Positions 1-13,048 of a stretch of 33,422 nt of DNA are shown here, piece by piece (position 1 is the first letter of the stretch; every line of letters starts with the position of its first letter). The notes under the pieces are model-generated. The model did no database searches, was not told the origin of the DNA, and saw only the letters and a list, made by a program, of their open reading frames with translations. The DNA is from Thermodesulfovibrionales bacterium (GTDB lineage Bacteria; Nitrospirota; Thermodesulfovibrionia; Thermodesulfovibrionales; Dissulfurispiraceae), in assembly GCA_026415695.1 (NCBI GenBank), contig JAOAGP010000122.1, positions 1-33,422 of the forward strand. The letters are read 5' to 3'. The position numbers and the translations under genes are program-made.

Positions 1-11
1 AACTACAAAAT

Positions 12-27
12 TGTAGAATAACTGACA
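12..27. promoter_or_regulatory. candidate NifA upstream activator site
   Basis: The bases fit TGT-N10-ACA exactly, the established NifA upstream-activator consensus, and lie about 100 bp upstream of the sigma-54-like element before nifH. That is a usual distance for an enhancer site. The left half overlaps a perfect inverted repeat (CTACAA-AA-TTGTAG, 3-16). Only six positions are fixed, so a chance match is possible; the position and the neighbouring promoter make it credible. No nifA gene is in the window. Confidence 0.5.
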
Positions 28-122
28 AATATGTAGTTTAATTCAGGTAGTCAATGTTTAACCTATAAAAATAAGTGTTTGATAAATAATGTTATATCAA
101 GTGTGCATCGGGAATTTTTGTT

Positions 123-139
123 TTGGCATCAGTCTTGAG
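123..139 (+). promoter_or_regulatory. sigma-54-like (-24/-12) promoter of nifH
   Basis: TTGGCATCAGTCTTGAG keeps the -24 block (TTGGCA), the GG-N10-G spacing and the TTG of the -12 block. It deviates from YTGGCACGRNNNTTGCW by A for the C of the -12 GC, and by TC for CG after the -24 block. Transcription would begin near 150, giving a leader of about 45 nt before nifH. Inferred role: nitrogen-regulated transcription of the nif operon. Confidence 0.55.
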
Positions 140-164
140 TAGTAACATTACAAAACAGATTTAG

Positions 165-1034
<870 letters not shown>

Positions 1035-1042
1035 ATAGAGCG

Positions 1043-1120
1043 GAAGTTAGGTAGCATGGAAGTTGGTAAGTAGATTTCCGATTACTGGGCTGCATAACTT
1101 CTGGACTACGGTAGAAGTTA
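1043..1120 (+). promoter_or_regulatory. nifH-nifD intercistronic hairpin region
   Basis: TAACTTCT (1095-1102) and AGAAGTTA (1113-1120) form a perfect 8-bp stem around a 10-nt loop. An upstream GAAGTTA (1043-1049) could pair with the same TAACTTC strand, so two stems would be mutually exclusive. A third GAAGTT lies at about 1059. There is no U-tract, so this is not a simple intrinsic terminator. A role in stabilising nifH mRNA or lowering nifDK expression is inference only. Confidence 0.4.
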
Positions 1121-1156
1121 ATTAATTAAATCAAAACATTCAAACAAGGAGGAACA

Positions 1157-2584
1157 ATGAGTTCACTAATAAAGCAGTCTCAAAAGATGATTGAGGAGGT
1201 CTTGGAGGCATATCCTGAAAAGACCAGAAAAGACAGGGCAAAACACCTTGCAGCAAATGACCCTACGGGTAGTTGTTCAACCTGTCAGGTCAAGTCAAAT
1301 ATAAAGTCTCGCCCCGGTGTCATGACCGTTAGAGGGTGTGCCTATGCAGGTGCAAAAGGTGTGGTTTGGGGTCCTGTCAAAGACCAAGTGACAATCAGTC
1401 ATGGTCCTATTGGTTGTGGACAGTATAGCTGGTGGTCAAGGAGAAATTATTACAATGGTATCACAGGTGTTGATACCTTTGGCACGATGCACATAACGAC
1501 GGACTTTCAAGAAAAAGACATTGTTTATGGTGGTGATAAAGGACTCCATGCAGCACTTCATGAACTCAAACAACTCTTTCCACTTGCAAAGAGCATGGGG
1601 ATACTTTCTGAGTGTCCTGTTGGTCTTATCGGTGATGACATTGAGGCTGTAGCAAAGAAGGCATCAAAGGAATTGGGCATCCCCATAGTGCCTGTAAGAT
1701 GTGAGGGTTTTAGGGGTGTTAGTCAGTCATTAGGACATCATATTGCTAATGACACAATAAGGGATTACATACTTGGCAAGGGTAAGTTAGAAGACTCAAC
1801 ACCCTATGATGTAGCCCTCATTGGAGATTACAACATTGGTGGTGATGCGTGGGCATCAAGAAAGATTCTTGAAGAACTTGGCTTGAGGGTCATTGCCCAG
1901 TGGACAGGTGATTCATCAATAAATGAACTTGGTATTGCCCATAAATCAAAACTCAATCTCATTCATTGCTATCGTTCAATGAATTATATATGTAGACACA
2001 TGGAAGAGGCTTACGGAATCCCATGGGTTGAGTTTAACTTCTTTGGACCAACGAAGATTTATCAGAGCATAAGGAAGATTGCGAGTTACTTTGATGATAG
2101 GATTAAGGAGAATGCAGAGAAACTCATTGCCAAATACAAGCCCGAGATGGACAAGGTGATTGAGGAATTTAGACCTCGTTTAGAAGGTAAAAAGGTGATG
2201 CTCTATGTAGGTGGTCTCCGTCCAAGACACACAATAGGTGCTTACGAGGATTTGGGCATGGAGGTCGTTGCAACTGGGTATGAGTTTGGACACAATGATG
2301 ACTACAAGAGGACATATCCCGAGATGCCAGAGGGTTCAATAATAATGGATGATGCAACCTTGTATGAACTTGAGGAGTTTAGCAGGAGATTAAGACCTGA
2401 CTTGGTTGGTTCTGGGATTAAGGAGAAGTATTCATATCATAAATTGGGCGTGCCGTTTAGACAAATGCACTCTTGGGATTATTCAGGACCTTATCATGGT
2501 TTTGATGGCTTCCCTGTGTTTGCAAGGGACATGGACATGACGGTCAATAGCCCAACATGGAAACTAATAAGGAGGAAGAGATGA
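1157..2584 (+). CDS. nifD: nitrogenase MoFe protein alpha chain NifD
   Basis: This is the alpha subunit of dinitrogenase, carrying the FeMo cofactor and half of the P-cluster. P-cluster cysteines are C61 (RGCAYAG), C87 (GPIGCG) and C153 (SECPVG). The FeMo-co ligands are C271 (IHCYRSMNY) and H447 (SGPYHGFDG). The Q190 and H194 equivalents of the substrate-site residues Gln191 and His195 are present. At 475 residues it is close to the Azotobacter-type length and lacks the large insertion of clostridial NifD. A strong AAGGAGG site precedes the ATG. The stop codon overlaps the nifK start in an ATGA arrangement, implying coupled translation of the two subunits. Confidence 0.99.
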
Positions 2585-4095
2585 GCAGATTGAATGTTTT
2601 AGACCACAATGACTTGTTTATAAAGGATGAATACCTGAAGCAGTTTGAAGACAAAAAGGTCTTTGAAAATTGTCCAACTGCAGAGGAGATTAAAAAGATT
2701 GAAAAATGGACAAAGAGTGAGGAATACAAAGAGTTAAACTTTAAGAGACAACACATAAAGATAAATCCTCACAAGGCATGTCAGCCACTTGGTGCGATTT
2801 TCTGTGCTTCAGGATTTGCAGATACATTGCCTTTCGTGCAAGGGGCGCAGGGATGTGTGGCATACTTTAGGAGCCATTTGAGTAGGCACTTCAAAGAGCC
2901 TATGGCTGCAGTGTCAACATCTATGACTGAAGATGCCGCTGTCTTTGGTGGGCTAAATAACATGCTTGAGGGTCTTGAAAATGCCTATCAACTCTACAAA
3001 CCAAAGATGATGGCAGTATCTACGACCTGTATGGCAGAGGTTATTGGGGATGATTTAAATGCCTTCATCAAACAGGCAAAGGACAAGGGAGTTGTGCCAA
3101 AAGACTTGCCCATCCCCTTTGCCCATACACCGAGTTTTGTGGGTTCATACCTTACAGGGTATGACAACATGATGAAGGGCATCTTGTCTTACATCTCTAC
3201 TGGTAAAAAGAGTTATCCCACAGGGAATATAAACTTTATACCCGGTTTTGATACCTACACAGGCAATTACAGGGAACTAAAGAGACTTATGCACATGATG
3301 GGTGTAAGACACACTATTTTAGCCGATGTGAGCAATGTCTATGACTCACCAAATGATGGACGCTATCTACTGTATCCGGGTGGCACACCGCTTGATGAGG
3401 CAGCAAATAGTGTAAATGGTTCAGCCACGATTGCACTACAGAGGTATTCAACTATTAAGACGCTTGAATACATCGGCAAGGAGTGGGTGCAGGCTACAAA
3501 GGTGATAAGACCAATAGGTATAAAGAACACGGATTTATTCCTTGAGGAGATTAGCAAGATTTCAGGCATACCCATACCTCAATCCATTGAGGATGAAAGG
3601 GGTAGGGCAGTAGATGCCATGATTGACTCCCATCCCTATGTTCACGGAAAGAAGTTTGCCATAGTTGCAGACCCTGATATGGCGATTGGTCTGTGCAACT
3701 TTATCATGGAGATGGGAGGAATTCCAGTGCATGTAGTTAGCACAAATGCAGATAAGAAGTTTCAAGAGGAGATTGAGGAGATACTTGCTCAAGACCCATT
3801 TGGCAAGGAGGCAAAGGTCTATGCAGGCTATGACATGTGGCACTTGAGGTCTTTGCTCTTTACAGAACCAGTGGACTTTCTCATAGGCAATTCATATGCG
3901 AAGTTTCTATGGAGAGATACAGGGACGCCACTAATAAGGATAGGTTTCCCCCTCTTTGACAGACATCATCTTCACAGGTATCCGATAATCGGGTATCAGG
4001 GTGCTATCAATCTACTAAACTGGATTGTCAACACAGTCCTTGATGAGCTTGATAGAAAGACGATGCACACTACGAGTTTTGATGTGATTAGATAA
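2581..4095 (+). CDS. nifK: nitrogenase MoFe protein beta chain NifK
   Basis: This is the beta subunit of dinitrogenase and shares the P-cluster with NifD. P-cluster ligand cysteines are C67 (HKACQPLGA), C92 ([10 protein letters not shown]) and C150 (STTCMAE), numbered from the ATG at 2581. I chose this start because GGAGG at 2571-2575 is correctly spaced and the ATG overlaps the nifD TGA. An in-frame ATG at 2557 would add eight residues but has no ribosome site. The protein of 504 residues is the long beta-chain type. The closing segment rich in GFPLFDRH and [14 protein letters not shown] is characteristic of NifK. Confidence 0.99.
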
Positions 4096-4107
4096 AAGGA
4101 AGGAGCC

Positions 4108-6732
4108 ATGTTTAGCACAGAAAAGGTTTATAAAGAAGGCTGTTTGCCAGAGACAAAACAGGGTGTATGTCGCAGTAGGGGAGGCGAGTCATGTGCCTTT
4201 GATGGTGCGATGATTGTCCTTCAACCACTTGCAGACTGTGCACATATTGTCCATGGACCTATTGCGTGTTGTGCTAATTCATGGGAAGGCAGAGGCACAC
4301 TTTCAACCCATGGTGATTTATACAAACATGGGTTTACAACGAGCATGACTGAATTAGACATCATTTACGGGTCAGAGGGGAAACTCTACGATGCCATCAT
4401 CCATACGGTTAAAAAGGTAAATCCTGAAGCTGTATTTGTATATGCAACCTGTGTGAGTGGATTGATTGGCGAGGACATTGAAGCTGTGTGTAAAAGGGCA
4501 GAGACGGAAACTGGCAAAAGGATTATACCGGTGAATGCACCGGGTTTTGTAGGACCAAAGAACCTTGGAAATAGACTTGCCGGTGAGACCCTTCTTGAAT
4601 ATGTCATAGGCACTGCTGAATTTGACGGAGAGTTTGAGCCAAATACAGCCGTAATAAATCTCATCGGTGAATACAACATTGCTGGTGATTTGTATGATGT
4701 TGAACCTGTGTTAAAAGAGGCTGGCATAAACATACTTTCAAGGATGACAGGCAACGGGACATTTAAGGAGATTACCTATGCACATAGGGCACATCTCAAT
4801 GTTGTGGTCTGTAGCAGGGCATTAATAAATGTTGCAAAGGTGATGCAGCGGCGATATGGCATCCCGTATGTTGAGGCATCCTTCTTTGGCATGACCGAGA
4901 TGGCAAGGACAATGAGATTGATTGCTCAGGAGATAAAAACAACAAGACCAGATATTGATATTACTGAGCGAGTTGAGTCTGTTATCAACAGGTATGAGGC
5001 AATCACAAGGGATAGGCTTAATGCCTTTACAACATTAAAAGGCAAGAGGGCAATACTTTATGGCGGTGGTGTCAAGAGTTGGTCATACATAAATGCGTTG
5101 AGGGATTTAGGTATTGAGCCAGTAGCGGTGGCTGTAAAGAAAAGCACATATGAAGATGAGCAAAAGGTCAAGGAACTATTAGGAGATAAAGCACTCATTT
5201 TTGAAGACACAACTGCAAAAAACATCAAGAGGATTTATAAGGAATACGATGCACATATGCTAATAGCAGGAAGCAGAAATCTATACATTGCAGTAAAAGA
5301 GGGCTATCCCTATGTGGATATCAATCAGGAAAGGCATATCTCTTACGCTGGTTACAATGGGCTTGTAAATTTAGCAGAGCAGATTGATGCAGGGTTGAGA
5401 TTTTATGGGGTTAGTAATCAGGTAAGACCTCATACCGTTACACTCAAGCATAAGGAAAACACCAAGATTGAAATAGACCCATTGAGACATTCTCAATCTA
5501 TGGGGGCTATTATGGCTATTCAGGGCATTGACAGGGCAATGCCGATACTTCATGGAGGACAGGGGTGTAGTTTCTTAAGTAAGGTGCTGTTAATCAAGCA
5601 CTTTAGAGAACCCATTGCATTGTCAGTCTCAAGGCTGTTTACTGAGGATGTAGTGATGGGAAGTGAGGAAAAACTCCAAAAGGTGATTGAGGATACAATA
5701 AGCAAGCAGAATCCTGATTTGATAGCCGTGTTATCAACTGCACTGTCTGATGTAAAGGGTGATGATATAAGTAGGGTCATAAAGGATGTGAAGGGGTTAC
5801 CAAATTCAAGTGGCACGACTATTTTAAGTGTAAGCACCCCTGATTACGAAGGGGGGCTACAGGATGGATACATGAAGGTATTAAAGGCATTATTGGTAGA
5901 GACCATGCCTAAATACCCAATATCACAGAAGGATAAGATAAGTGGTCAGATAAATATCATTGCAGGTAGTCATCTCACTCCAGCGGATTTTGTTGAGATT
6001 AGGGAGATAGTAGAGGCATTTAGATTAAAGCCCATATTCATACCTGATTTAGGTTGTTTAGATGGTAGCAGAAAAGGGTTTTCAGCCCTAACTTCTGGGG
6101 GGACTACTATGGCAGATATTAAGAATGCCTGTGCCTCTGAATTTAGCATCGTCATTGGGTCGTCTTTGGGTAATTCATCAGATAGCCCAGCGAGGATGAT
6201 TGAGGACTTGTGTGCGATAGGTTTTGTCACCTTTGAGGGACTCCAGAGCCTTTCTGAGATAGACAGGTTTTTTGACACCTTGAGAATGATTAGTGGCAGG
6301 GATATACCGCAGAGGTATCAAAGACAAAGGGCAAGGCTGATTGATGGAATGAGGGATGCACATTTTTATCTTTCATCAAAGAGGGCAATCATTGCCCTTG
6401 AGAGTGACCATGCAATACAAATCTCACGGTTACTTGAGGATATGTCAATGCAGACGGTATTAACAGTCGTTCCGTTGTTAAAAGACGATGCAGATAAGAT
6501 TGTGACAAGAACAATTATGCAAGGTGATTTAAATGATATTGATGAGAGGGCTGATGTAATAATCTCCAACTCTCATGCAGAGCAAAGGGCAAGATTATTG
6601 GATATCCCGCTTTATCAAATAGGTTTTCCGTCATACAAGTTGATAGGAATGACACACAGGGAGACTATTGGATACAGAGGGATGCTTAATTGTATTAACG
6701 ATTTGGTAAATCTAATTCATGGAGGTCACTAA
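4108..6732 (+). CDS. nifEN: fused FeMo-co scaffold protein NifE-NifN
   Basis: One uninterrupted 874-residue frame contains a NifE homologue (about 1-437) followed by a NifN homologue (about 440-874). NifE and NifN normally form a separate-subunit alpha2beta2 scaffold that receives NifB-co and matures it to FeMo-co. In the NifE half, C29 (ESCAFDG), C54/C55 (GPIACCANSW) and C115 (YATCVSG) lie where NifE holds its [4Fe-4S] cluster. The NifN half keeps the QGC cysteine (C487) in LHGGQGC and a C-terminal GYRGML segment. The junction near nt 5425 has almost no linker. An AAGGAAGGAG site precedes the ATG, 12 bp after nifK. The fusion would force 1:1 stoichiometry. It could alternatively reflect a sequencing fusion, but the frame shows no scar. 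Confidence 0.96.
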   Translation: MFSTEKVYKEGCLPETKQGVCRSRGGESCAFDGAMIVLQPLADCAHIVHGPIACCANSWEGRGTLSTHGDLYKHGFTTSMTELDIIYGSEGKLYDAIIHTVKKVNPEAVFVYATCVSGLIGEDIEAVCKRAETETGKRIIPVNAPGFVGPKNLGNRLAGETLLEYVIGTAEFDGEFEPNTAVINLIGEYNIAGDLYDVEPVLKEAGINILSRMTGNGTFKEITYAHRAHLNVVVCSRALINVAKVMQRRYGIPYVEASFFGMTEMARTMRLIAQEIKTTRPDIDITERVESVINRYEAITRDRLNAFTTLKGKRAILYGGGVKSWSYINALRDLGIEPVAVAVKKSTYEDEQKVKELLGDKALIFEDTTAKNIKRIYKEYDAHMLIAGSRNLYIAVKEGYPYVDINQERHISYAGYNGLVNLAEQIDAGLRFYGVSNQVRPHTVTLKHKENTKIEIDPLRHSQSMGAIMAIQGIDRAMPILHGGQGCSFLSKVLLIKHFREPIALSVSRLFTEDVVMGSEEKLQKVIEDTISKQNPDLIAVLSTALSDVKGDDISRVIKDVKGLPNSSGTTILSVSTPDYEGGLQDGYMKVLKALLVETMPKYPISQKDKISGQINIIAGSHLTPADFVEIREIVEAFRLKPIFIPDLGCLDGSRKGFSALTSGGTTMADIKNACASEFSIVIGSSLGNSSDSPARMIEDLCAIGFVTFEGLQSLSEIDRFFDTLRMISGRDIPQRYQRQRARLIDGMRDAHFYLSSKRAIIALESDHAIQISRLLEDMSMQTVLTVVPLLKDDADKIVTRTIMQGDLNDIDERADVIISNSHAEQRARLLDIPLYQIGFPSYKLIGMTHRETIGYRGMLNCINDLVNLIHGGH

Positions 6733-7134
6733 ATGAAGGTAGCCTTTGCAACGACTGATGAAAAGACGATTAATGAACATTTTGGTAGGGCAGGCAAGTT
6801 TGTGGTCTATAGCCTCACACCTGAAAGATACGATTTTTTGGAGGTAAGGGTCTTTGCAGATGGAAGGGATAAGGAGATTGAAGAAACAAAGGGCATGGGA
6901 AGTATTCATGATGAGAGGGTTGAGGCAAAGGTGGATAGGCTTTCAGATTGTAAGATTATTTACCTCACAGAGATTGGAGGACCTTCGGCAGCAAGGCTTG
7001 TAAGGAGGGGGATGATGCCAATTAAGGTAAAGGAAGGAGTGGGTATTGAGGAGTCTCTCATTAAACTACAGGAGACACTTAAGACATCACCACCACCTTG
7101 GCTAAAGAAGGCAATGATGACAAATGGAAATTGA
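6733..7134 (+). CDS. nifX: NifX/NifB-C-terminal-type cofactor-binding protein
   Basis: This 133-residue protein belongs to the dinitrogenase iron-molybdenum cofactor family (NifX/NafY/VnfX and the C-terminal domain of long NifB). Known members bind NifB-co or the VK-cluster and shuttle precursors between NifB and NifEN. Family hallmarks are the opening MKVAFATTD, the NEHFGRAGKF loop with a likely cluster-binding histidine (H16), and the later GGPSAARLVRRGMMPI segment. It starts directly after the nifEN stop with a GGAGG site inside the end of nifEN, so translation is probably coupled. The NifB of this cluster lacks this domain, so NifX supplies it as a separate protein. Confidence 0.88.
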   Translation: MKVAFATTDEKTINEHFGRAGKFVVYSLTPERYDFLEVRVFADGRDKEIEETKGMGSIHDERVEAKVDRLSDCKIIYLTEIGGPSAARLVRRGMMPIKVKEGVGIEESLIKLQETLKTSPPPWLKKAMMTNGN

Positions 7135-7172
7135 GATTTTCTCAAAATAAACATCAAGGAGGAATAAAGACT

Positions 7173-7490
7173 ATGAAGATGATTAGGGCTTTTGTAAGAC
7201 CAGAAAAGGAACAGGAGATAGTCCTTGCACTTGAAGGGGCAGGGTTTCCCTCATTAACCAAGATGCCTGTATTTGGTAGGGGTAAACAGAAAGGGTTACA
7301 GGTTGGACCTGTGCATTATGATGAGTTGCCAAAGACACTTCTTATGATGGTAGTTGATGACGAAGATGTAAAGAAGGTTGTATCCATCATAACTGAAAAG
7401 GCAAAGACGGGCTTTATCGGTGATGGAAAGATATTTGTTAGTCCTGTAGAGGCAGCATACACAGTAAGGACAGGGGAGGCAGTCCTATGA
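7173..7490 (+). CDS. nifI1: GlnB-like nitrogenase regulator NifI1
   Basis: This is a PII-superfamily protein of 105 residues. In methanogens and many anaerobes NifI1 works with NifI2 to bind and inhibit dinitrogenase on ammonium addition, relieved by 2-oxoglutarate and ATP. Visible signatures are the opening MKMIRAFVRPEK, the GRGKQKG motif before a shortened T-loop, and the GDGKIFVSPVE block with a following TVRTGE. The ATG at 7173 is chosen over an upstream TTG at 7098 because AAGGAGGA at 7156-7163 fits it, and family members begin here. The gene ends in an ATGA overlap with nifI2. Confidence 0.93.
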   Translation: MKMIRAFVRPEKEQEIVLALEGAGFPSLTKMPVFGRGKQKGLQVGPVHYDELPKTLLMMVVDDEDVKKVVSIITEKAKTGFIGDGKIFVSPVEAAYTVRTGEAVL

Positions 7491-7903
7491 AAGAGATAAC
7501 AGCGATTATAAGAAGGGATAAGGTTCCAGAGACAAAGACTGCCCTTTCAGAGATAGGCTTTCCATCAATGACCCTTCAGAGTTGTGAAGGCAGGGGCAAG
7601 CAAAAAGGTGCAATGTGTGCAGAGATGGACTCTGAGATGCCTGATAGTTTTTGCACCGTTGTTAAGTTAAAACCTACTCCTTCAACCTATGCACTTGAAC
7701 ATACGCTTCCCAAGGTTGCTATGTTTGTGCCAAAGAAGATGATAACGATGGTTGTGCCAGATGATAAGGTTGATATCATAGTAGATACCATTATCAAGAC
7801 AAACCAAAGTGGTCAGAGAGGGGATGGAAAGATATTTGTCTCTCCAATAGATTCTGCCTTAAGGGTAAGGACTGGGGAGAGAGACTGTGATGCAGTTAGA
7901 TAG
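7487..7903 (+). CDS. nifI2: GlnB-like nitrogenase regulator NifI2
   Basis: This is the 138-residue partner of NifI1 in post-translational nitrogenase control. It opens with MKEITAIIRRDK, typical of NifI2, keeps GRGKQKG, has the longer T-loop insert of NifI2 (around residues 40-75), and ends with the GDGKIFVSPIDSALRVRTGE block. It overlaps nifI1 by four bases. In most genomes nifI1I2 sit between nifH and nifD; here they follow nifX. Neither NifI shows the ELYRGAEY-type T-loop in which classical PII is uridylylated, so the nearby GlnD probably acts on another PII protein (inference). Confidence 0.93.
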   Translation: MKEITAIIRRDKVPETKTALSEIGFPSMTLQSCEGRGKQKGAMCAEMDSEMPDSFCTVVKLKPTPSTYALEHTLPKVAMFVPKKMITMVVPDDKVDIIVDTIIKTNQSGQRGDGKIFVSPIDSALRVRTGERDCDAVR

Positions 7904-7915
7904 GGAGGTAAAGTT

Positions 7916-8191
7916 ATGGCAATAGTTGGTTATACAAGGGGTGGTGATACATGGACACCTAAATTTATAGAATTTATTGATGTTGAGAAGTGTATTGGCT
8001 GTGGAAGGTGCTATAAGGTATGTGGCAGGGATGTATTGATGCTCATAGAAAAGCCCTTTGAAGGTGAAGACGAATATGGAGATGACATGGGTAATAAGGT
8101 AATGTCAATCAGTAATCCGATGAATTGTATTGGCTGTGAGGCATGTGCAAGGGTCTGCACTAAAAAGTGCCAGACCCATGTAGAAATTTAA
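7916..8191 (+). CDS. nif-associated 2x[4Fe-4S] ferredoxin (FdxB/ferredoxin III type)
   Basis: This small soluble electron carrier has 91 residues and two full CxxCxxCxxxC motifs: C26-C29-C32-C36 and C71-C74-C77-C81, with a further C85. The opening with TRGGDTWTPKFI and the insert between the clusters match the nif-specific ferredoxin III family (FdxB) found in many nif operons. Its likely role is feeding electrons to nitrogenase or to cofactor-assembly enzymes. GGGAGG lies 7 bp before the ATG, 12 bp after nifI2. It is the last gene before the palindromic element. Confidence 0.9.
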   Translation: MAIVGYTRGGDTWTPKFIEFIDVEKCIGCGRCYKVCGRDVLMLIEKPFEGEDEYGDDMGNKVMSISNPMNCIGCEACARVCTKKCQTHVEI

Positions 8192-8204
8192 TGCCATATA
8201 CCAA

Positions 8205-8523
8205 AACCCCAGAGACACAGAGAGTAGTTGTGATGATTGTTTTTACAGGGGTGCCTAAAATAAATTGATTTATTTTAAAAAAGGGGGATAAATCTGAATA
8301 AACAAATAACGACCCCTTATAAAAAGGCTTAATGGGATAGAGTGAAAAAAATTTTTTACTAAAAAAAAACAAGTTGCAGCCATAAATATCCTGTTGATTT
8401 ATTTGTTTATGAAGATTTATAACCCTTTTGATAAATATTTTTTTGACAAATATGGTTTCAGGTATTAAATAATGAAGTGGATTATGAAACTCGTTTATTT
8501 AAAATCTCTGTGTCTCTGTGGTT
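8205..8523. mobile_element. MITE-like palindromic element, no ORF
   Basis: This fills most of the 370-bp gap between the ferredoxin gene and nifB. The ends are inverted repeats matching at 18 of 19 positions, with core CAGAGACACAGAGA at 8210-8223 and its reverse complement at 8505-8518. Inside are 31-nt arms at 8279-8309 and 8399-8429 pairing at 27 of 31 positions. There is a perfect 10-bp hairpin with a 2-nt loop at 8256-8277 and an AT-rich central hairpin at 8341-8360. There is no coding frame of note. CAGAGACACAGAG-type repeats occur between genes in many bacterial genomes (recollection, not checked). No clear target-site duplication is seen. It could equally be a transcribed structured RNA. 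Confidence 0.6.
8279..8429. repeat. internal 31-bp inverted repeat with 89-nt spacer
   Basis: The left arm (8279-8309) and right arm (8399-8429) pair as blocks of 7, 8 and 12 bp separated by two 2-nt mismatches. The spacer (8310-8398) is AT-rich and holds a hairpin at 8341-8360. The centre of symmetry is within about 10 bp of the centre of the outer inverted repeats, so the element is one nested palindrome. Confidence 0.8.
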
Positions 8524-8561
8524 AATCCTGTTGGTAAAATAATTTTTGTGGAGGTATTTAC

Positions 8562-9431
8562 ATGAAAAATAAAATCATAGCCAAGCATCCTTGCTTTACA
8601 GCCTCTGGTCATGGAAAGTTTGGTAGGATACACCTACCAGTAGCACCAAATTGTAATATACAATGTAACTATTGTGATAGACGGTATGATTGCGTAAACG
8701 AATCACGCCCGGGAATTACAAGCAAGATACTAACACCTGCAGAGGCAGTTGACAGAGTAAGGTTACTGTTAGAAAAGAATAGAAACATCACAGTCATTGG
8801 TATTGCAGGTCCCGGCGACCCCCTTGCAAACGAACAAACCTTTGTTACCCTTCAGATGCTAAACAGGGAATTTCCGGACATCATCTTGTGTTTGTCAACA
8901 AACGGTCTTGTTCTTACAGAAAGACTACAGGACATCATAAGATGTGGTGTGCAAACTATTACAGTAACTATCAATGCTATAAAGATACAAACCGCACTCA
9001 AGATATATAAGTGGATATATTTTAGAGGGAAGGCATATAAAAATGACGACAGGGCTTCAATATTGTTATCTCAGCAGTGGAGAGGAGTAAACAACGCAAT
9101 AGATGCTGGATTAACGGTCAAGGTCAATACTGTGTATTGTAGCGGTATCAATGATGAGGATATCCCCTTAATAGCTCAGGAATGCTCATGTTTAGGTGTG
9201 GATGTTATGAATATAATACCTCTGATACCTCAAGCAGATTTTAGCAATCTAACACCAGTGTCTCAAGATATGCTTCATGAAATGAGATTAAGATGCTCAC
9301 AACACATAAACATTATGACACACTGCAGACAGTGCAGGGCTGACGCATGTGGCAGTCTAAATGAGGATATAGACATGGAGTTGGAGTTATTATACGACAG
9401 GATTCAGGAAGAATACTGTGATAGTATTTAA
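8562..9431 (+). CDS. nifB: FeMo-co core synthase NifB (radical SAM), single-domain form
   Basis: This radical SAM enzyme fuses [4Fe-4S] units and inserts carbide to make NifB-co, the precursor of FeMo-co. The SAM-cluster motif CNIQCNYC gives C31, C35 and C38, followed by the NifB-specific RRYDCVNESRPG with C44. H24 and C11 lie in the conserved N-terminal stretch. GIAGPGDPLAN is at about 86. The C-terminal HCRQCRAD (C255, C258) supplies ligands for an additional cluster. At 289 residues it lacks the NifX-like C-terminal domain of proteobacterial NifB, as in archaeal forms. GGAGG precedes the ATG. It is cut off from the rest of the nif operon by the palindromic element. Confidence 0.97.
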   Translation: MKNKIIAKHPCFTASGHGKFGRIHLPVAPNCNIQCNYCDRRYDCVNESRPGITSKILTPAEAVDRVRLLLEKNRNITVIGIAGPGDPLANEQTFVTLQMLNREFPDIILCLSTNGLVLTERLQDIIRCGVQTITVTINAIKIQTALKIYKWIYFRGKAYKNDDRASILLSQQWRGVNNAIDAGLTVKVNTVYCSGINDEDIPLIAQECSCLGVDVMNIIPLIPQADFSNLTPVSQDMLHEMRLRCSQHINIMTHCRQCRADACGSLNEDIDMELELLYDRIQEEYCDSI

Positions 9432-9464
9432 AAAAACAACCGTTATGCTAAACTCCTTGCCCAT

Positions 9465-11942
9465 ATGGAATACAAAGACACTATCGTAGATAGCACAATC
9501 AAGATGCTTCAAACCACACGGTGTGGTTTCTTGACATCCCAGCATGTCACATCAGTAGTAGATGAGATTATCACACAGGAATTTATTAACCATGCACATG
9601 ATGATATAGCCTTACTTGCTATTGGGGGATATGGTAGGAGGGAATTGGCACCATTTTCTGATGTTGATTTGATGTTTTTGTGTAACAAAAAGGATCAATC
9701 AGTATCAGAGACCATAGAAAAGATACTATACAGTCTTTGGGATATAGGGATGGGAATAAGCCATTCTGTTAGGACTATACAAGAAACTATTCAAGATGCA
9801 TCGGCAGACCTGCAAACACGCACCGCATTGCTTGATAGCAGACTGATATGTGGTAGCAGCAAGATATGGAATGAGTATAGAAGGGAAGTATATCCAAAGA
9901 TTGTAAGAAGTAAGAAGGAGGTTTTTATATCAAGTTTACTATCAGAGGTCTCAAGGAGGTATAAAACATATAGTCTTTCGCTTTACCAGTTAGAACCAAA
10001 CATAAAAGAGGGTAGAGGCGGACTCCGTGACATGCATACAATACAGTGGCTCTTGAAGGTATCAAGTAATTTAGAAAGGTTTGAAGACATTAAGGGTTTT
10101 TTGCCTTCTTTAGACTTTAAACAGTTTAAACGGGCTTGCGAGTTCATTTTAAGAAGCAGGATTTGCCTCCATATTGTTTCAGACAGAAAAAATGAACTTC
10201 TCTCCTTTGATTATCAAGATAAAGTGGCAACAATGATGGGGTTCAAAAAGACACAGAGATTTTCAGCATCTGAGATATTTCTTAGGGTTTACTATAGACA
10301 TACGAGGATGGTGATGGAAACGCTTAACAGGATTTCAAGACTCTGTGCAAAGAAGATGTTTAGGTTTTTCCCTACCTTTTTAAAAAAGCAGATAACTCAA
10401 AACTACTTCTTGTTTAATAACGAGATTGTGATGAAGGATACAACATTGTTATCAAGACCAGATGTTCTCATTGAGGCATTTTTATCGTATGCAATCTCAA
10501 GAAGGGATTTTAGCATCAATCTTGAGAATGAGATAAAGAGGGTTGTTAGAAGGCTAAAAAGAACAAGGCAGGTTGCCGTTATCATGTCAAATATCTTTTT
10601 AAAGATACTGCAAACAACGAGGGTATATGAAACCCTGTATGAAATGCACAGGTTGGCAGTACTTGAGATAGTTATTCCAGAATTTAAAGGGCTTAGATAC
10701 CTTGTTGTGCATGAACCATATCACAGATACACAGTAGATGAGCACACACTTAGATGTATTAAGCATCTTGAGAATATAAAAAATGGTATCAATACAAGAT
10801 ACAAGGTTTTGCAGGATATTACAAAGGAACTTGATATTAGACCCATATACATTGCCCTTTTACTGCATGATGTTGGTAAGGGTGTATTTGGCAGCAGACT
10901 AAGACATGAGGGAGAGGGATATAAGATTATCAAGGGCACATTAGAGATGTTTGCATTGACCAGACAGGAAAAGTGTTTGATAGAGTTTCTTGTTATGAAT
11001 CACCTTGTCTTATCAAGGGATGCTTTAAAAAGGGACATAGAAGACCCAAACACAGTTTTTTGGCTTACCGATATTGTTCAAGATGAGTTAAGACTAAAAG
11101 CCCTACTGCTAACAACATTTGCAGACATGTCTGCAGTAAAGCCTGATTTTTTCAGTGAATGGAAGGCACAGATACTGTTTGATTTGTATTCCATGGCATT
11201 GTCAAAGATTAGAGGGGTTGACCGTGTATCCATAAAATCTGACTCTGATGAGATCAGGAGATTTCTCTCACTGATGCCTGAGAGATACGAGATATCAACA
11301 TCATTGGATGATATTAATAAGGACTTTAGTTTGTTTAAAATAGCAAATATCAAAGGGATTGCAATAGATATCAGAAACACAAATACTGATATCGTTGAGG
11401 TTGTAGTATCAACCTATGACTCCAAGGGACTATTTTTAAAGATAGTTGAGGTAATAAGTAGTTTTGGATTAAACATCGTAAAGGCTCGCTTATACCCTGT
11501 AAAAAACTCAATGATAATTGACAAGATATACATCTCTAACTGGCAATATGTGGCATGGGATGGTTTTGAACAAAACTTTGTTGAGGATTTAACTAAAAGT
11601 ATTGTAAGTGAGATGAGAATTGGCAAACCTGATGCTGGGTTGAGAAAAACTAATGAATACGCAGTCAAAAGACATCTGATGAACTTCGAGCCATTTGTTG
11701 AGTTAGACAACGAGATATCTGATAACAATACAATGATAGAGTTGTTTGCATCTGACAGGGTGGGACTTCTGTTTGATATATCCAAGATATTGGTTGCCTT
11801 TGATGTTGATATCATTTCCGCCATTATCAACACAGATGGAGACATTGCCCATGATGTTTTTTATGTTCAACACAGAGGAGAGAAGATTTTAAACTCAAAT
11901 GCTATAAGGCTTATGAAATCAATCTATGATGTGGTAGGTTGA
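9465..11942 (+). CDS. glnD: bifunctional [protein-PII] uridylyltransferase/uridylyl-removing enzyme GlnD
   Basis: GlnD senses glutamine and adds or removes UMP on PII proteins. Domains in order: nucleotidyltransferase with GGYGRRELAPFSDVD at 54-68; the PII-uridylyltransferase helical domain; an HD hydrolase domain with LLLHDVGKG (H468, D469); and two C-terminal ACT domains near 645 and 758 (the latter around FASDRVGLLFDISKI). At 825 residues it is slightly shorter than enteric GlnD but complete. It begins 33 bp after nifB, so is probably co-transcribed. No clear ribosome site is visible before the ATG. Its 3' end overlaps the convergent histidine kinase gene by 19 bp. No glnB/glnK or amtB is in the window. 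Confidence 0.95.
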   Translation: MEYKDTIVDSTIKMLQTTRCGFLTSQHVTSVVDEIITQEFINHAHDDIALLAIGGYGRRELAPFSDVDLMFLCNKKDQSVSETIEKILYSLWDIGMGISHSVRTIQETIQDASADLQTRTALLDSRLICGSSKIWNEYRREVYPKIVRSKKEVFISSLLSEVSRRYKTYSLSLYQLEPNIKEGRGGLRDMHTIQWLLKVSSNLERFEDIKGFLPSLDFKQFKRACEFILRSRICLHIVSDRKNELLSFDYQDKVATMMGFKKTQRFSASEIFLRVYYRHTRMVMETLNRISRLCAKKMFRFFPTFLKKQITQNYFLFNNEIVMKDTTLLSRPDVLIEAFLSYAISRRDFSINLENEIKRVVRRLKRTRQVAVIMSNIFLKILQTTRVYETLYEMHRLAVLEIVIPEFKGLRYLVVHEPYHRYTVDEHTLRCIKHLENIKNGINTRYKVLQDITKELDIRPIYIALLLHDVGKGVFGSRLRHEGEGYKIIKGTLEMFALTRQEKCLIEFLVMNHLVLSRDALKRDIEDPNTVFWLTDIVQDELRLKALLLTTFADMSAVKPDFFSEWKAQILFDLYSMALSKIRGVDRVSIKSDSDEIRRFLSLMPERYEISTSLDDINKDFSLFKIANIKGIAIDIRNTNTDIVEVVVSTYDSKGLFLKIVEVISSFGLNIVKARLYPVKNSMIIDKIYISNWQYVAWDGFEQNFVEDLTKSIVSEMRIGKPDAGLRKTNEYAVKRHLMNFEPFVELDNEISDNNTMIELFASDRVGLLFDISKILVAFDVDIISAIINTDGDIAHDVFYVQHRGEKILNSNAIRLMKSIYDVVG

Positions 11943-13048
11943 GATACAAGTGGTAGATAGATATAAAATGTGCTTCCTTCGTTTACCATCGATTCAGCAG
12001 TAATAATACCTTTATGAGCCTTGATGATAGAATAAGCTGTAGACAAACCCAATCCTATACCCTTCCGATAATCCATCTTTTTAGATGTAAAATAGGGGTC
12101 AAATATCCTTGCTAATACCTCCTTTTCCATTCCCTTTCCTGTATCCCTAATGGTTATCTTTATATAATTAGTTTTGTCTGAAGACACATTGATAGTAGTA
12201 TTTTCCAACACATTACCCTCAACGCTGATAAATAGTTTTCCACCGTTGGGCATCGCCTCGCACGCATTCTTTATGATATTGCTTATACACTCGTAGATTA
12301 GACCCGAATCAACCTCAACGATGTATTCATCCTTCATATCAAAGTGACAATCTACATTTGGGCTAACATTGTGTTGTATTGCATCCTTGATAATTCCACC
12401 TATATTAATAGGAGTTTTGTATAAATCAACACCCTTTGAAAAGGACATGAACTTCTTGATTAGTTCTCTTGCCTGTTCTGCAGATGTCTCGGCATTTTGT
12501 AGATAATTATAAATCTTGTCATCCTCAGATATGATGGACTTTGCAAGAGAAATGTTGCCCAATATTGGGGTTAAAAGATTATTAAAATCATGGGCAAACC
12601 CAGATGCTAATAGACCTATAGACTCCAACATCCTTTCCTTTTGATATTCATTCTCAAGCAGTCTTACTCTTATGAGTTTGTTTACTAATTCCAGCATCTC
12701 CTTGTATTTAATCGGTTTTATTAAGTATCCATCTATGCCAACCTCAATGGCTTTGAGTAGATATTTAGTATCGCTAAATGCTGATGTGATGATTATAGGG
12801 GTATTTGGATTTATCTTTTTTATCTCTTCAGACATAGTAAGACCATCCATTTCTGGCATCTGGATGTCTGTTAGAACTAAAACAGGAGACCTTTCCTTGA
12901 ATAGATTTAATCCTTCTAAACCGTTGGTAGCAAGTAAGACATTTGTGAACCCCTTTTTCTTAAAGGTATGCAATACCAGCTCACTTGATACTAACTCATC
13001 CTCCACATAAAGTATCAAGGAATCCTGTATTTCTTTATCTCTAATCAT
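11924..13048 (-). CDS. receiver domain-histidine kinase hybrid (NtrB-like transmitter)
   Basis: This is a 374-residue cytosolic signalling protein with no membrane segment. The N-terminal receiver domain (about 10-125) has acidic residues E16/D17, phospho-acceptor D61 (LTDIQMPEMDG), T88/S89 and K111 (KPI). The transmitter follows: HisKA-type H-box GFAHDFNNLL with H153, N-box NIIKNACEAM, and ATP-lid blocks DTGKGM, FDPYFTSK and GIGLGLSTA. Receiver-first architecture implies it takes phosphate from, or is allosterically set by, another kinase. No DNA-binding partner is adjacent. Being next to glnD does not by itself show a role in nitrogen control. Its 3' end overlaps glnD. Confidence 0.92.
   Translation of the reverse strand: MIRDKEIQDSLILYVEDELVSSELVLHTFKKKGFTNVLLATNGLEGLNLFKERSPVLVLTDIQMPEMDGLTMSEEIKKINPNTPIIITSAFSDTKYLLKAIEVGIDGYLIKPIKYKEMLELVNKLIRVRLLENEYQKERMLESIGLLASGFAHDFNNLLTPILGNISLAKSIISEDDKIYNYLQNAETSAEQARELIKKFMSFSKGVDLYKTPINIGGIIKDAIQHNVSPNVDCHFDMKDEYIVEVDSGLIYECISNIIKNACEAMPNGGKLFISVEGNVLENTTINVSSDKTNYIKITIRDTGKGMEKEVLARIFDPYFTSKKMDYRKGIGLGLSTAYSIIKAHKGIITAESMVNEGSTFYIYLPLVSQPTTS

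Follow-up and report, generated by a model that had tools for sequence, protein, structure and literature searches.

Two independent palindromic elements, one nested in the other, separate fdxN from nifB in a Thermodesulfovibrionales genome

In this work, we examine the 319-bp insert that lies between the nitrogen fixation genes fdxN and nifB on a contig of a Thermodesulfovibrionales bacterium, of which a stretch of 33,422 nucleotides (hereafter the window) was analysed. This insert consists of two elements that are nested and independent of each other. The inner one belongs to a repeated family that we call R1, and the outer one is a hairpin whose arms carry the repeat CACAGAGA. We consider it likely that the insert is a composite of two mobile-type palindromes, in which R1 came to be nested within the CACAGAGA-arm hairpin.

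The nif operon of the window runs in the order nifH, nifD, nifK, nifEN, nifX, two PII-type genes, fdxN, the insert, nifB and glnD. The insert (8205-8523) is flanked by fdxN (7916-8191, plus strand), which encodes a nif-specific ferredoxin III (TIGR02936), and by nifB (8562-9431, plus strand), the 289-aa product of which covers positions 8-286 of the 441 of the TIGR01290 profile, that is, the radical SAM part alone; this NifB has no NifX-like C-terminal domain. The operon also contains an apparent fusion of nifE and nifN in a single 874-aa gene (4108-6732), and its two PII-type (nifI-like) regulator genes stand after nifX and before fdxN (7098-7903). The initial annotation had described the spacer as a 319-bp, ORF-free insert rich in repeats, and indeed no ORF of at least 100 aa lies between the end of fdxN (8191) and the start of nifB (8562). 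The end repeats that it had reported, matching at 18 of 19 positions (95%), were found again at 8205-8223 and 8505-8523, as were the perfect 10-bp hairpin (8256-8265 with 8268-8277) and the central AT-rich hairpin (near 8343-8357). The inner arms are also present, but they are longer than the 31 nt first given, since they extend over 39 nt (8271-8309 with 8399-8437) and match at 82%. The folding of the gap as RNA, which had been proposed as a check, gives -87.2 kcal/mol for 8200-8530 (z = -5.6), and the predicted fold is closed by the outer arms.

The inner element spans about 205 bp (8250-8454, plus strand, ends approximate), as delimited by full-length family matches and by a copy in the same genome with which it shares 83% identity (G000:C61:293-502). 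That copy was found by searching the assembly of the window as DNA (2.2 Mb in 123 contigs); it has other gene neighbours and lacks the CACAGAGA arms, and it brings the number of R1 copies in this genome to two. A weak match in G040, a genome of the same order but of a different family, has two conserved blocks in collinear order, and the changes in its stems compensate each other. A covariance model built from three sequences and run on 296 Nitrospirota genomes detected about 70 full-length matches. These are spread over 23 of the genomes, the richest of which holds 10 copies, and all the R1-bearing genomes of this set fall in the order and class of the window. An exact two-part R1 motif, searched in 84,980 species genomes, gave 12 stretches, all of them in Nitrospirae or Thermodesulfovibrionales assemblies; the same motif had no match in viral contigs, where a 16-nt motif gave 118 unspecific matches, and the phage records searched gave none. 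The initial annotation had suggested a search for copies, and held that a sequence present once, with no empty-site allele in relatives, would argue against a mobile element; R1 is multi-copy, and the gap has other contents in relatives.

The R1 copies of one genome are alike up to their ends and divergent beyond, and R1 is amplified in relatives. The copies are mostly intergenic, with neighbouring genes in all directions and no orientation bias. Those that we group as class A are bounded by the terminal inverted repeats TGTCCAAAATA and TATTTTGGACA. In the window copy, comparison with the multi-copy relatives reveals degenerate forms of both, GGTGCCTAAAATAAATT on the left (8250-8266, plus strand) and AAATATTTTTTTGACAAATATGG on the right (8433-8455, minus strand). 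No consistent direct repeat was seen at the ends of the aligned copies, and a limited search of long TGTCCAAAATA pairs among the TGTCCAAAATA sites of three genomes (G098, G057 and G088) showed no autonomous partner with a transposase. The last of these genomes instead revealed a separate palindromic repeat of about 224 bp with these same ends (CTGTCCAAAATA), which has about 80 end matches in 1.7 Mb, several of them at contig ends (L397-L403). A scan of the window and 20 loci (19 R1 loci and the C61 copy) against Rfam gave nothing at threshold, and no description of R1 was found in the literature searched, which included few subscription papers and no preprints. Judged from its sequences, R1 is a new family of structured, MITE-like repeats that, within the reach of the searches, occurs only in Nitrospirota of the Thermodesulfovibrionales type.

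The structure of R1 finds support in strong covariation. The core recognised by the model (8278-8429, plus strand, 163.6 bits) comprises an outer stem, a GA-rich internal loop (8294-8297/8411-8414), a further stem (8298-8309/8399-8410) and a CGAC/GTTG pairing (8310-8313/8393-8396) that encloses a variable centre. In 32 matches from 30 loci, two loci of the window's genome being counted on both strands, all of the 31 modelled pairs have changed on both sides and 94.6% of the cells are paired, in an alignment that was fitted to the model and that counts only copies found by it. The covariation score is 0.74, against 0.09-0.18 for slid structures. The stems vary freely, while the GA-rich internal loop and the strands CGACACCTTATAAAA and AATATCCTGTCGAT are nearly fixed. 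A resemblance of this loop to integron attC sites or to K-turns was considered and not retained. The idea of a structured element is supported by this covariation in the inner stems, but covariation is no proof of RNA, and imperfect palindromes can also acquire it through templated correction. One may still ask if R1 is a family of functional non-coding RNA genes, the copies of which would be paralogous genes rather than mobile repeats, as such covariation around fixed internal loop strands is what usually distinguishes structured RNAs. We find this improbable given the patchy presence of R1, its copy number of 1 to 10, the lack of orientation bias, the near-identical intergenic copies at unrelated sites and the terminal repeats that bound the class A copies.

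The outer hairpin is formed by a pair of CCACAGAGACACAGAGA repeats, which are dispersed in the genome of the window. Its left arm, AACCCCAGAGACACAGAGA (8205-8223, plus strand), is made of two CACAGAG-type units at 8-nt spacing and belongs to a family dispersed in the genome and in the phylum; its right arm, TCTCTGTGTCTCTGTGGTT (8505-8523), reads on the minus strand as an exact CCACAGAGACACAGAGA. Since 7 of 500 block shuffles of this AT-rich stretch reach the outer-arm match of 18, the weight of that match comes from the genome-wide evidence: with at most one mismatch, CACAGAGA occurs at 21 sites of the assembly, against 2 for a reversed control pattern. These arms often form convergent pairs, about 60-330 bp apart, which contain short loops or GGAAGT-type palindromes, and they are often adjoined by CCCTTGAACC repeats. 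The genome has no GxxExxY gene. Its sole gene for an S23-type four-helix-bundle protein (G000:C1:1054-1377, L443) stands between convergent GGGTTCAAGG arms and has co-directional neighbours. Neither for the outer hairpin nor for R1 did we find a target-site duplication, a precise empty site or a transposase.

The initial annotation had recommended a comparison of the gap in sister strains. In one species of the same genus (G002), the gap between fdxN and nifB contains CCACAGAGAAATAGAGA and TTCTCTGTG, which enclose a repeat of about 200 bp that is unrelated to R1 and recurs in that species, with about 45 matches. Nowhere else in this genome does CACAGAGA match as well as in the gap itself, all other matches being at control level, and no arms were found within 80 bp of 20 other copies of the repeat (19 in the same genome and one in G001). 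In G001, also of the genus, the gap is without the arms, and insert-free gaps of about 11-60 bp occur in other members of the order. The statement that the element splits the nif operon holds in part: the insert lies between genes, and relatives with insert-free gaps exist, but a precise empty-site allele was not found. Because the CACAGAGA arms of G002 lie in the same gap around an unrelated repeat, the outer hairpin is probably ancestral, and was then invaded independently by unrelated palindromes in each lineage. The arms of the two species could also have been gained separately, since the remaining parts of the two gaps show no alignment. At two other loci of G002 (L094 and L106), the repeat of about 45 copies follows or interrupts an R1-like 5' hairpin arm, again a palindrome within a palindrome.

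The location of the insert also raises the question of nifB expression. It was first thought that the element might terminate or re-promote transcription, and more broadly the insert could be a regulatory boundary selected for the control of nifB-glnD, acting as a terminator, a processing site or a promoter. Its placement exactly at the fdxN-nifB junction would fit such a role, as would the TGGCAC...TTGC-like sigma-54 motifs seen by eye just upstream of nifB in several relatives, in which nifB is therefore often a separate unit. However, no intrinsic terminator was found in the gap, its sigma-70 promoter-like sites do not exceed chance (3 found against 3.9 expected), and a simple scan of positions 1-12000 of the window gave no sigma-54-like site. 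The insert-free gaps of the order and the unrelated inserts of the two sister species also argue against selection for such a boundary, and we regard it as unlikely.

Hardly tenable is the view, taken in the initial annotation, that the whole insert is one mobile, self-complementary element of which the outer arms form the terminal repeats. The concentric layout and the fold closing on these arms may evoke it, but it is contradicted already by the inner part standing without arms at C61 and in relatives and by the arms found around other contents. Of the nested, MITE-like architecture first proposed, the nesting stands, and so does the MITE-like character for the inner part, which is multi-copy in relatives, non-coding and palindromic, with degenerate terminal repeats; the concentric repeats do not, however, make one element.

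We thus return to the composite of two palindromes, for which the following course of events can be proposed. An ancestor of the genus would have gained, between fdxN and nifB, a hairpin whose two convergent arms are CACAGAGA repeats, and R1 would have come to lie inside it in this species, as the unrelated repeat did in G002; both steps have support. The outer hairpin probably belongs, as its non-coding form, to a class of small elements found between genes, the coding forms of which carry GxxExxY or S23-type genes between such arms, and its arms would be set by their mutual complementarity, with no need for a fixed sequence. In the nif transcript, the arms are expected to close a stem over the insert, which the cell most likely tolerates as a stem-loop at the fdxN-nifB junction, and this outer stem-loop is probably cut by RNase III, as in rRNA intervening sequences. 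R1, for its part, probably moves via its folded form, be it DNA or RNA, because its stems covary while its loop strands stay fixed. For the cell, the most likely effect would be neutral, or a mild uncoupling, at the mRNA level, of nifB-glnD from the nif genes upstream.

The link to GxxExxY and S23-type genes comes from the wider set of genomes. Of the 296 genomes, 42 have GxxExxY genes (TIGR04256), 39 have CACAGAGA when up to one mismatch is allowed, and 22 have both, where 5.5 are expected (p = 8e-12, kinship ignored). Significant convergent arms were found near the gene at 25 of 29 GxxExxY loci, with units that are 7-mers at 8-9 nt spacing (CACAGAG, CGCAGAG, CACGAAG, CGCAAAG, CGCAGAT), and at 27 of 30 loci of S23-type four-helix-bundle genes, with varied unit sequences, against 0 of 27 NifB control loci. 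Both kinds of genes tend to lie in sense with co-directional neighbours (21 GxxExxY loci out of the 27 for which the genes on either side are called, and 22 of 27 S23 loci). Outside Nitrospirota, CACAGAG arms also flank GxxExxY on plasmids of two Bacteroidota, Bernardetia and Bacteroides finegoldii; arms of this kind enclose small, seemingly selfish genes in several phyla. On a plasmid of Sphingomonas parapaucimobilis (L462), GxxExxY lies in sense between fabD and fabG, with a GCGAAG-type repeat upstream only. The nuoJ-nuoK gap of another family (f23, L150-L158) holds CACAGAGA-GxxExxY in four genomes, a GGAAG hairpin in one, a GCAAAATG hairpin next to a CTCTGTGG end in another and nothing of the kind in two; one site therefore accepts interchangeable contents. 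In the literature searched, of which few subscription papers and no preprints were part, we found no description of this association of arms and genes; nothing was found on the octamer repeats, nor on flanking repeats in work dealing with GxxExxY and TIGR02436.

These observations lead us to a broader proposal, which we make tentatively and with rather more doubt than conviction, that a single broad class of mobile elements, defined by their structure, includes both the GxxExxY and the S23-type proteins. Such elements would have matching arms of tandem 7-9-mers that are free in sequence, would enter operons in sense, would act through an RNA or single-stranded hairpin and would serve as landing pads for R1, the G002 repeat and GGAAGT hairpins, the fdxN-nifB insert being a doubly nested, gene-less example. 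Three loose observations would be linked in this way, namely the orphan S23 and GxxExxY genes, the octamer-repeat hairpins and the structured MITEs, and a testable hypothesis results, in which self-complementarity sets the ends, operons are entered in sense and elements nest. GxxExxY is an annotated protein family with scant mention in the literature searched, and the frequent matching inverted arms around it offer a handle on its function. R1, as a new and strongly covarying family, provides a clear signature for the annotation of Nitrospirota genomes.

Several known systems can be compared with these elements. REP/BIME palindromes, which are mobilised by RAYT transposases, are likewise intergenic hairpins that nest and cluster, and the G002 insert has a REP-like GC-rich hairpin; R1, however, is longer and AT-rich, with conserved internal loops. 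MITEs are non-autonomous derivatives of DNA transposons, and R1 resembles them in being short, non-coding, palindromic, AT-rich and multi-copy at unrelated sites, with terminal inverted repeats in the class A copies. It differs from them in that a limited search found no partner transposase and no target duplication was found, and in that its stems covary between genomes while the loop strands are fixed, which is untypical for MITEs. As for the outer part, the rRNA intervening sequences (IVS) with an S23 protein, for example those of Coxiella burnetii, are small elements with complementary ends (PMC4990558). The outer arms are also complementary (18/19), with one long stem-loop predicted in the transcript, and the S23-type genes of Nitrospirota have arms of this style around them. 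In contrast to the IVS, the insert of the window lies between fdxN and nifB, outside 23S rRNA, it carries no S23-type ORF and its arms are CACAGAGA repeats. We do not class the outer part as an IVS, because the rRNA location and the S23 ORF are both missing; by analogy, it is best placed as a non-coding member of an IVS-like class of elements.
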